A stretch of DNA of 20,357 nucleotides, taken from IMG/VR virus record IMGVR_UViG_3300021389_000205, positions 1 through 20,357 of that record. One strand, given 5' to 3'. Under the pieces are notes generated by a model. The model was not told the origin of the DNA. It saw only the letters and a program-made list of their open reading frames with translations, and made no database searches. Position 1 is the stretch's first letter. Each line of letters opens with the position of its first letter. The stretch is from a virus. Shown piece after piece: positions 9,807 to 20,357 of this stretch. Position numbers and translations under genes: made by a program.

Positions 9807-9856
9807 GGTTATCTCCTCTGGGGTTGGTTTGGTTGGATTTGGTGTGGTGTGACTGC
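9807..9856 (-). promoter_or_regulatory. CA-rich leader with shared motif upstream of the SSB gene
   Basis: The 50-bp spacer between the Sak4-like gene and the SSB gene is almost G-free on the - strand until the ribosome site. It contains TCACACCACACCA (9840-9852) and then AAACCAACCCCAGAGGAG. The same 13-mer (TCACACCAMACCA) recurs in two other intergenic spaces at 13870-13882 and 19153-19165. It could be a phage RNA polymerase promoter element, a protein-binding site, or an unstructured leader that promotes ribosome loading. Confidence 0.5.
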
Positions 9857-10606
9857 TTAGTCGTAGTAGGCTTTCAAGTGATCCAGAAGCAGCTGAGCAT
9901 CGTTGTTGATGAACGTCTGCGCAACAGTGAACATTCCCATAGGAGAACGAATACGCTCTCCCACAGTGTCTTTGGTCAGCTGGGTCTGGAACACATATTT
10001 GAAGCCCAGTGCCTCATCTTCTGGAGTGATGGTCAAAAGCTCATTTTCGTATTTGGCCAAAGCCTTCAACGTCATGCGCTTGGTTGAAACAACAGTCGAG
10101 AAATAGGACTCGATACCGTTGTTTTGCAAAGCCCCTTTGACAGGGATCTTTGTGTGCATGGTTCCAGTAGCTTCATCCAAATCAGTCCGAGTGTGGGCTG
10201 TAAAGATGACCCACTTGTCAGACCGAGCTACCTTGTTTTGCATCAGTTTTTTGAAAAACTGAGCATACTCGCCCCAAGCTTGCATGGTCTTAGAGGACCC
10301 AACAACGTGGACGGACTCGTACATGTCCATCAAAAAGGTTTGGGTGTCCACGATGATGCCTTCAAAGTCAGGGTTGTCCTGAGCATGATCAAAGGCGTCA
10401 TGCACTTCATATGGATCCGTGATGACATAGGTATCAAACTTGTTTCTGAAGGGAAGGCGCTTACCAGCCTCACAATTTAGGTACATAACCTTTTTGCCAC
10501 CTTTGAGATTGCGCAAGCTGGCAGACTTACCAGTCGCGCTTTGACCGGAGATCATGACCAAGTGGTCATTGAGCTGAACTCCAGCATCGTCTGTTTCATC
10601 TGTCAT
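9857..10606 (-). CDS. Sak4-like RecA-fold ATPase (AAA_24 type), 249 aa
   Basis: Phage RecA/RadA-related ATPase of the Sak4 family, which helps single-strand annealing or strand exchange and is usually encoded next to an SSB. Walker A is G21-Q-S-A-T-G-K27-S28; strand and Walker B are FEGIIVDTQTF with D87; T136-A-H138 matches the sensor position. KKVMYLNCEAG (38-48) after the first helix is typical of this group. ATG 10606 follows GAGGTACTT. The gene sits downstream of a - strand terminator-like hairpin (10640-10685) and just upstream of the SSB gene, the usual functional pair. It corresponds in position to the N4 gp44 gene. Confidence 0.82.
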   Translation of the reverse strand: MTDETDDAGVQLNDHLVMISGQSATGKSASLRNLKGGKKVMYLNCEAGKRLPFRNKFDTYVITDPYEVHDAFDHAQDNPDFEGIIVDTQTFLMDMYESVHVVGSSKTMQAWGEYAQFFKKLMQNKVARSDKWVIFTAHTRTDLDEATGTMHTKIPVKGALQNNGIESYFSTVVSTKRMTLKALAKYENELLTITPEDEALGFKYVFQTQLTKDTVGERIRSPMGMFTVAQTFINNDAQLLLDHLKAYYD

Positions 10607-13832: not shown

Positions 13833-13912
13833 GATGATCCCCTTTGGGTCCAAATGGTGTGATTTGAGGTGGTGTGGTGTGATACCGGAAAATTACTCTA
13901 CCGGTACCACAC
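13833..13912 (-). promoter_or_regulatory. Strong intercistronic hairpin followed by CA-rich leader
   Basis: GTGTGATACCGG (13877-13888) and CCGGTACCACAC (13901-13912) form a 12-bp stem with one G-T wobble around a 12-nt AT-rich loop. On the - strand transcript the hairpin lies between the 107-aa gene and the nuclease gene. The 3' arm runs into the shared TCACACCACACCA motif (13870-13882), followed by a second ATCACACCA (13854-13863 region) and the ribosome site. There is no U-run, so it is not an intrinsic terminator. It could be a processing site, an operator or a phage-polymerase promoter. Confidence 0.55.
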
Positions 13913-19069: not shown

Positions 19070-19243
19070 GTTTGTTCTCCTGAACGATTGTAGCCAATAA
19101 AGAAAAAGTAAGTTTTTAGAGGCTATAACTACCAATTTGATTGGGTTTGGTCTGGTTTGGTGTGATATTTTGATTGCTTTATTCACAGTTGTGTAAAACA
19201 GTAGGGGTGGGAAACTGAAACACTACTGAGGAGATTAACGAAT
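19070..19243. promoter_or_regulatory. Divergent control region between replication cluster and parA
   Basis: This spacer must start transcription both ways. For parA (+), TTGATT (19170-19175) and TAAAAC (19194-19199) with an 18-bp spacer form a weak sigma-70-like candidate; GAGGAG (19227-19232) is the ribosome site. CAGTAG (19199-19204) and CTACTG (19223-19228) form an inverted repeat just before parA, a possible partition-protein operator. For the - strand I see no convincing sigma-70 promoter. There is the shared CA-rich motif (19153-19165) and a 5-bp stem with 3-nt loop CCAAT-TTG-ATTGG (19132-19144), a shape like vRNAP promoter hairpins. Functions are inferred. Confidence 0.5.
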
Positions 19244-19978
19244 ATGTCTGTCATTACCTTCGCCTCCACTAAGGGGGGTGCGGGCAAGACAACGTCAGCA
19301 ATCATACTGGCTTCTGTACTATCCAAGCACCATGATGTGACTGTGATAGATACAGATCCGGCTAAAAGATTGATGTCTTGGTCCGAAAAAGCAAATCTAC
19401 CAATGCGACTAAATGTCATCGCATCAGGCGGTGAGCGGGAGATCCATGATGAGATCGAACTCGCTCACAAAGTCTCTGATTATGTGATCATTGATCTGGA
19501 GGGTGCTGCTACCCGTCTTAACGCATTTGCCATGGGGGAGAGTGATCTGGTGATCGTTCCCATGGGGGATGAGCAACCGGATGCTGAAGGCGCCATTGAG
19601 ACGCTCGCACAGCTGGCTCTGGAGGCTAGGAACATGCGTCGGGAGATACCCGTCCGGATCTTGTTCACACGCACTCAGGCGGCCGTCAAATCTCGTATGG
19701 CAAAGTCTTTGAACCAACAGGTCCGAGACAAGATCGGGAGCTTCTCTACTGAGCTGCATGCCCGAACAGCTTTCTCTTCGCTGCACAACATGGGAGGCAC
19801 CCTGTATGACATGGATCCTCTGTTGGTTGGTGGTCTCGAGAAGGCTTTAGGGAATGCAGAGCTCTTCGCTGAAGAACTCAAAATGGTCATGAGATGTGTT
19901 CACCAGCTGCGGGAGCAGGGTGGGAAGAGAACATCATTGAAAGAAAAGTTAGGAGCACGCCATGTCACGAAAGCTTGA
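19244..19978 (+). CDS. parA: ParA-family partition ATPase, 244 aa (VirC1/pTAR-like)
   Basis: Deviant Walker A ATPase that segregates low-copy replicons. STK10-G-G-A-G-K15-T-T holds the signature Lys; A' motif VIDTDP (34-39); Walker B VIID84-LEG. There is no N-terminal helix-turn-helix domain, so it is the small (type Ib) kind in which the partner protein, not ParA, represses the operon. The sequence VIDTDPAKRLMSW and the LNAFAMGESDLVIVPM segment recall VirC1/pTAR-type ParA of alphaproteobacterial plasmids. Start ATG 19244 has GAGGAG upstream. It overlaps the ribbon-helix-helix gene by 17 bp. Its presence argues for stable extrachromosomal maintenance of this phage genome. Confidence 0.92.
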   Translation: MSVITFASTKGGAGKTTSAIILASVLSKHHDVTVIDTDPAKRLMSWSEKANLPMRLNVIASGGEREIHDEIELAHKVSDYVIIDLEGAATRLNAFAMGESDLVIVPMGDEQPDAEGAIETLAQLALEARNMRREIPVRILFTRTQAAVKSRMAKSLNQQVRDKIGSFSTELHARTAFSSLHNMGGTLYDMDPLLVGGLEKALGNAELFAEELKMVMRCVHQLREQGGKRTSLKEKLGARHVTKA

Positions 19979-20189
19979 TTTTGCCCCATTGGAAGAAGCA
20001 GAAAAAGACATGGGGACTCGTCGTCGGTGGAAGAGCCGTGATACCAACCCTACGGTCCAGATGTCTCTGCGCATGCCTGAAGCAACCTATGAGAAGTTTC
20101 GGGATCAATGCCTCAAAGAACGGTACACAAACGGTGAGATGCTCGAAGAGATGATGAAGGTCTATCTGGCCAGTAAAATTAAGCCTTAA
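19962..20189 (+). CDS. Ribbon-helix-helix partition partner (ParG/ParB-like), 75 aa
   Basis: Small DNA-binding protein. Residues 31-70 fit the ribbon-helix-helix fold: strand TVQMSLRMP (31-39), helix ATYEKFRDQCLKER (41-54), turn YTNGEM, helix LEEMMKVYLA. A mobile basic N-terminal tail (1-29, with GTRRRWKSR) may hold the Arg finger that stimulates the ParA ATPase, as in ParG, which is about the same size. It starts at ATG 19962 after TTAGGAGCACGCC and overlaps parA, as usual for partition operons. Likely targets are the repeats at 20236-20347 or the operator before parA. The fold is confident; the partition role is inferred from the neighbour. Confidence 0.85.
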   Translation: MSRKLDFAPLEEAEKDMGTRRRWKSRDTNPTVQMSLRMPEATYEKFRDQCLKERYTNGEMLEEMMKVYLASKIKP

Positions 20190-20222
20190 AACTTTTCTTT
20201 TTATATTCTAATTTCTAAGATT
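20190..20222. other. AT-rich stretch next to repeats
   Basis: The 33 bases after the ribbon-helix-helix gene are almost all A/T (ACTTTTCTTTTTATATTC and so on). They could be an easily melted element of a replication origin beside the repeat array, or merely a gene end with a weak U-rich terminator-like tail. No gene is seen. Confidence 0.4.
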
Positions 20223-20235
20223 CAGAGCCAGAATC

Positions 20236-20347
20236 CCCCAATTATCTCAATAGTTTACAGACCCAACTATCATGTAATTGGGGGGAACCATCAGGTAATT
20301 GGGGAATACTGTCAGGGATTTGGGGGTGAAGTATCAGGTTTTTGGGG
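20236..20347. repeat. Iteron-like repeat array (possible origin and/or centromere)
   Basis: Four direct repeats of a 14-bp core start at 20270 (TCATGTAATTGGGG), 20291 (TCAGGTAATTGGGG), 20312 (TCAGGGATTTGGGG) and 20334 (TCAGGTTTTTGGGG), so spacing is 21, 21 and 22 bp, two helical turns. One inverted copy is at 20236-20249 (TGAGATAATTGGGG on the - strand). The array reaches within 10 bases of the window end and may continue. Position directly after parA and an RHH gene fits a centromere; even spacing and the neighbouring AT-rich DNA also fit an iteron origin with a Rep gene beyond the window. Confidence 0.82.
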
Positions 20348-20357
20348 ATCAAAATCC

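Follow-up and report, generated by a model that had tools for sequence, protein, structure and literature searches.

Phage-plasmids such as P1, N15 and VP882 are phages whose genomes also hold genes for plasmid replication and partition. Plasmids with a Rep_3 (RepE/pi-type) origin are named in several Alphaproteobacteria, among them Pukyongiella p4 (NZ_CP043622), Paracoccus sanguinis pPspOM44 (NZ_CP051544) and Thioclava p5 (NZ_CP149930). In the literature, N4-like isolates are called strictly lytic, apart from recent exceptions that carry integrases (PMC10654107). The recent evidence for lysogeny in this group consists of integrases and integrated proviruses, and the word "plasmid" is absent from the main text of that paper (PMC10654107); likewise, no report of N4-like plasmid prophages was found in the open-access literature searched. 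The origin type considered here is already known, and an N4-like lineage carrying one appears, judging from open-access papers, to be undescribed. The locus lies at the end of a 20,357-base stretch of viral DNA, hereafter the window, and comprises a partition operon followed by a repeat array.

The iteron array and the genome that carries it

The features of the locus, in window coordinates, are:

19244..19978, + strand: ParA-type partition ATPase (VirC1/ParA, phrog_164; 244 aa; dN/dS 0.037 against the relative L014)
19962..20189, + strand: small ribbon-helix-helix (RHH) partner (75 aa; overlaps parA by 17 bp), a probable ParG/CopG-like centromere-binding protein
20192..20231, + strand: AT-rich candidate unwinding element, containing TTCTAAGATTCAG at 20213-20225
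20236..20254, - strand: single inverted iteron-like copy, ACTATTGAGATAATTGGGG (weak iteron-profile match, 7.3 bits; also in L014 and L015)
20248..20257, + strand: spacer element CAATAGNTTA, common to several relatives and plasmids
20265..20285, + strand: iteron 1, direct copy, AACTATCATGTAATTGGGGGG
20286..20306, + strand: iteron 2, direct copy, AACCATCAGGTAATTGGGGAA
20307..20327, + strand: iteron 3, direct copy, TACTGTCAGGGATTTGGGGGT
20329..20349, + strand: iteron 4, AAGTATCAGGTTTTTGGGGAT, the final copy in relatives as well

The direct repeats are tandem and in helical phase, with spacings of 21, 21 and 22 bp, and the core TATCAGGTAATTGGGG has four matches when up to three mismatches are allowed; shuffled sequences average 0.11 matches, and none reached four. 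The first-pass annotation had described four direct copies with a 21-22 bp period and one inverted copy, next to AT-rich DNA and partition genes, and all of these are present, the last as the ParA and RHH genes; the period is compatible with cooperative binding on one face of the helix. Its expectation that the array is probably longer than seen proved wrong, as the arrays of L002/L014 (ParA identity 97-98%) and L003/L015 (about 95-96%) stop after the same four direct copies and one inverted copy, placing the array end ~8 bp before the end of the window. The next strong iteron copies in L014 are kilobases away, inside and upstream of rep. No match of the array to known plasmids or phages was found at the DNA level.

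The AT-rich region beside the iterons contains short repeats, with TTCTAAGATTCAG at a fixed distance from the array. An AAGATTC or GATTC element precedes the first iteron by 45-47 bp in 14 of the 18 phage and plasmid origins compared (a set that includes a few near-duplicates), and in some it forms tandem AAGATTCT repeats. DnaA boxes (TTATCCACA) are found near the arrays of plasmids and of L021 and L141, and no exact box lies near the array in the window lineage. One perfect DnaA box (TTATTCACA) occurs at 19179-19187, where the helicase and parA operons diverge, and is not conserved in L014 or L015. The non-coding origin region is much more conserved than nearby synonymous sites, since only 5 of 164 bases (~3%) differ between the window and L014 while parA has a dS of 0.39.

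The gene content marks the window as part of an N4-like phage genome (Schitoviridae): it encodes an open-ended virion RNA polymerase of 2352 aa (phrog_2206, E=0; Pfam vRNAP domains), an N4-type primase (sharing ~60% identity with primases from N4-like phages of Escherichia), a family A DNA polymerase (PolA) and a Dda-type helicase; Sak4 is encoded as well. Relatives of 61-74 kb hold the complete virion RNA polymerase. The relative G005, an N4-like contig of 70,741 bp, contains the N4 portal, TerL and the two N4 RNA polymerase genes and ends in a 118-bp terminal direct repeat, as expected of a circular assembly. The order primase, PolA, Dda, parA, RHH gene, array, rep is kept in contigs from independent metagenomes, which argues against chimeric assembly; N4 replication genes followed by parA, the RHH gene and rep are seen in about ten distinct contigs. 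In the relatives' contigs phage genes and plasmid rep/par genes share one molecule.

Several other features of these genomes were observed. The DNA polymerase gene, uninterrupted in the window, is interrupted around residues 602-626 in L018 (4747-5600), L021 (3313-5687), L024 (5002-5874) and L030 (5255-5924). The inserted segments measure about 0.7-0.9 kb or more and may be inteins or introns. Motifs of the GGTTTGGTGTGGTGTGA type (TCACACCACACCAAACC on the opposite strand) occur in the window (9836-9857, 13871-13887 and 19144-19170) and in the relatives G005, G007 and G016. Each large contig has 11-15 sites, where shuffled sequences have about 1.5. Many are intergenic, and often a gene starts 20-80 bp downstream of the site, so that the motif is less likely to be a dispersed centromere and is possibly a phage promoter or operator. 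Among the small open reading frames of G005 and G007 (L117-L124), one matches the Acb2/Tad1 hairpin domain (an anti-CBASS family) and one the NADAR domain.

The Rep_3 initiator and its promoter

The window fragment stops before rep, and no rep gene lies within its 20,357 bases. A Rep gene, which the first-pass annotation advised looking for, is present downstream in relatives that extend past the window end: 1-5 kb beyond parA and the RHH gene they encode a protein of 280-300 aa in which both Pfam domains, Rep3_N and Rep3_C, score above cut-offs (L002, L004 and L005). A profile built from the Rep alignment matches the RepE and pi initiators in the PDB. No relative of this Rep was found among 50,697 phage records, 471 of which hold an N4-type portal. 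Homologues are found on plasmids of Rhodobacterales and other Alphaproteobacteria, with up to 65% identity, and the five closest plasmids (Rep about 60-65% identical) carry arrays of 21-bp period, with the core TGTGAGGAATTCGGGG or TGTGAGGTTTTCGGGG, beside rep. The iteron core of the window, TCAGGTAATTGGGG, is a variant of this plasmid core, and other N4-like relatives have the variants TGTAAGAGATTCGGGG, TATAACCAATCTGGGG, TATGATAGATCCGGGG, GGTGAGGTATCTGGGG and TGTGAGGAAATCAGAG.

In each phage, the variant of its own array recurs just upstream of the rep start. The rep promoter contains an iteron-like operator in L014 (at 15749) and in seven further phage contigs, and the L014 copy (AACTATCAGGTTTTTGGGG), 40 bp upstream of rep, is the same variant as the window array. 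When operators were scored with array-derived profiles, the true pairing of the six array types with rep promoters was the best of 720 possible (permutation 1/720), a test that rests on the pairing and not on the presence of sites. This recurrence ties the array to Rep despite the gap of 3.5 kb between array and rep in L014. The phages thus hold a natural set of co-varying Rep, iteron and operator variants, useful for learning how Rep_3 proteins read their sites.

A single branch of the unrooted Rep tree (support 88/87) splits the N4-like sequences from those of plasmids and other phages, which is compatible with one acquisition. The same Rep and iteron family also occurs in other phages or phage-like elements, namely L144 (tape measure protein), L151 (helicase and polymerase) and L149/L152 (DNA ligase), and the replicon is therefore shared across phage types. 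A candidate ThyX-type thymidylate synthase gene, judged from its sequence, lies near rep in most relatives (L002 13957-14772).

Three findings support the origin reading offered by the first-pass annotation: the closest relative has a Rep_3 gene downstream, homologous plasmids bear these iterons next to rep, and the AT-rich element keeps its position. On comparative grounds the array is best classed as a Rep_3 iteron origin and probably not a centromere. Comparison shows iteron identity, co-variation of array and operator, conservation and genome context, and from the Rep_3 family we infer binding, melting and autoregulation; the plasmid-prophage state is less certain than these. The array would supply the iterons of a theta-type origin (oriV) at which a Rep_3 initiator acts, and the initiator gene is predicted a few kb past the window end in the same phage genome. 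Rep monomers would fill the four in-phase iterons of 21-22 bp and, aided by host factors, would open the AT-rich TTCTAAGATTCAG element that lies about 45 bp upstream, after which the helicase would be loaded. Rep dimers at sites of the same type in the rep promoter would repress rep and so limit its own expression. The adjacent ParA-RHH operon would segregate the copies and, with both origin and partition functions, the phage could persist as a low-copy circular plasmid prophage. The whole account, from the Rep_3 oriV and the initiator beyond the window to the par operon and the plasmid prophage, is assigned a probability of about 0.8.

Plasmid prophage, lytic origin, centromere or titration site

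The RHH partner is modelled as strand-helix-helix (AlphaFold2; moderate confidence, pLDDT 70), and nearly all Foldseek matches are RHH proteins, with ParG first, but at E-values above 2, so that only the fold consensus was used. No Pfam match was found for this protein, which is a probable ParG/CopG-like centromere-binding protein on the strength of its predicted fold. No close ParA was found in the 50,697 phage records, the best being 34% identical. In related pairs the dN/dS ratio of parA is about 0.04, that of the RHH gene 0.05-0.11 (0.03-0.11 for the two together) and that of rep 0.02-0.08; these ratios place rep and the par genes under purifying selection.

Plasmid prophages are the most likely state for phages of this lineage because no tyrosine integrase was found in 17 contigs, because rep and par are under purifying selection, and because synteny holds across independent metagenomes; the presence of ParA-RHH together with the lack of a tyrosine integrase makes a low-copy plasmid prophage the simplest life style. 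It is judged probable that a whole lineage of N4-like phages lives on in its hosts in the form of low-copy plasmids, using a Rep_3/iteron origin and a ParA-RHH system that are related to their counterparts on Rhodobacteraceae plasmids. Such a conserved replicon would represent a second route to lysogeny besides integrases, one that a small cloned fragment would suffice to test directly, and it links the Rhodobacteraceae plasmid pool to a major marine phage group.

Alternatively, the same Rep_3 iteron origin may serve only as a start of lytic replication in a phage that never becomes a plasmid, with ParA-RHH positioning replicating genomes or persisting as a relic. This is rather unlikely, but it retains some weight because no host genome was found, no CI-like repressor was recognised and one relative lacks Rep_3. 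Among 397 Rhodobacteraceae genomes, a search for the N4 primase turned up no lysogen and only two matches, both partial and weak, and the best ParA matches in GTDB contigs, among the matches listed, came without N4 genes. Pfam recognised no CI-like repressor among 94 small open reading frames of two near-complete relatives. ParA-RHH is present in the relative G013 (L026; 73.9 kb, probably near complete), in which neither Rep_3 nor such an iteron array was found; this phage may use a different initiator. The strictly lytic habit described for isolated N4-like phages would also agree with a purely lytic use. Against it, the 471 isolate records with an N4-type portal manage without such a Rep, ParA and its RHH partner are under strong purifying selection, and the same module is found on real plasmids. 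Two observations concern possible carrier states elsewhere. The portal family phrog_1216 has matches in 18 of 385 Alphaproteobacteria, the 12 strongest of which lack a virion RNA polymerase match and are probably other phages. The only N4-like record in PLSDB, A. baumannii pRBH2-3 (L112, NZ_CP110465), is a 75-kb circular "plasmid" of a bacterial assembly that consists of an N4-like phage genome without Rep_3, and it is possibly another N4-like carrier state.

A centromere (parS/parC) bound by the RHH protein, the other function proposed in the first-pass annotation, is a highly improbable reading of the array. The array directly follows the parA-RHH operon in the window, and tandem sites are typical of RHH centromeres. 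However, about 300 bp separate the RHH gene from the array in L014, and the array abuts rep in L018 and L022, among others. The array goes with rep, and not with the par genes, in plasmids and in most relatives, and its variants match those of the rep promoter, which makes it unlikely that it serves as the centromere. Least probable of all, the array could be a locus for incompatibility or copy control, titrating Rep while the true origin lies elsewhere near rep. This reading would suit the distance to rep in L014 and the extra iteron-like sites in and upstream of rep, but it is opposed by the AAGATTC element conserved at a fixed distance beside the array and by the failure to find a second array near rep in L002.

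Comparison with described systems

The ParA-RHH operon resembles ParF-ParG/ParA-RHH (type Ib) systems in that a short ParA (244 aa) is followed by an overlapping small RHH gene, but it differs in that its RHH sequence lacks a Pfam match and in that no centromere could be named. The alphaproteobacterial plasmids named above, whose Rep is about 60-65% identical, share with the phage origin 21-bp iterons with the same core and a similar AAGATTC element with similar spacing, and on them, too, ParA and a small partner gene accompany the Rep_3 origin. Unlike theirs, the phage origin sits in an N4-like phage, its iterons are of the variant TCAGG/ATTTGGGG and not TGAGG/ATTCGGGG, rep lies away from the array in the nearest phage relative, and a DnaA box is not evident near the array.

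As in N4-like phages (Schitoviridae), the genome is about 70 kb and encodes a virion RNA polymerase, an N4 primase, a family A polymerase and a Dda-type helicase, with the N4-type RNA polymerase pair, portal and terminase seen in relatives; beyond this gene set, the present lineage has rep with its iterons, parA and the RHH gene. It resembles P1, N15 and VP882 in carrying plasmid replication and partition genes in a phage genome in which no integrase was found, and differs from them in being an N4-like podovirus with a virion RNA polymerase, in which no repressor was recognised and for which the plasmid state is a proposal. To our knowledge, this virion type is not among the known phage-plasmids. 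If the proposed account is true, these are phage-plasmids that carry a virion RNA polymerase.
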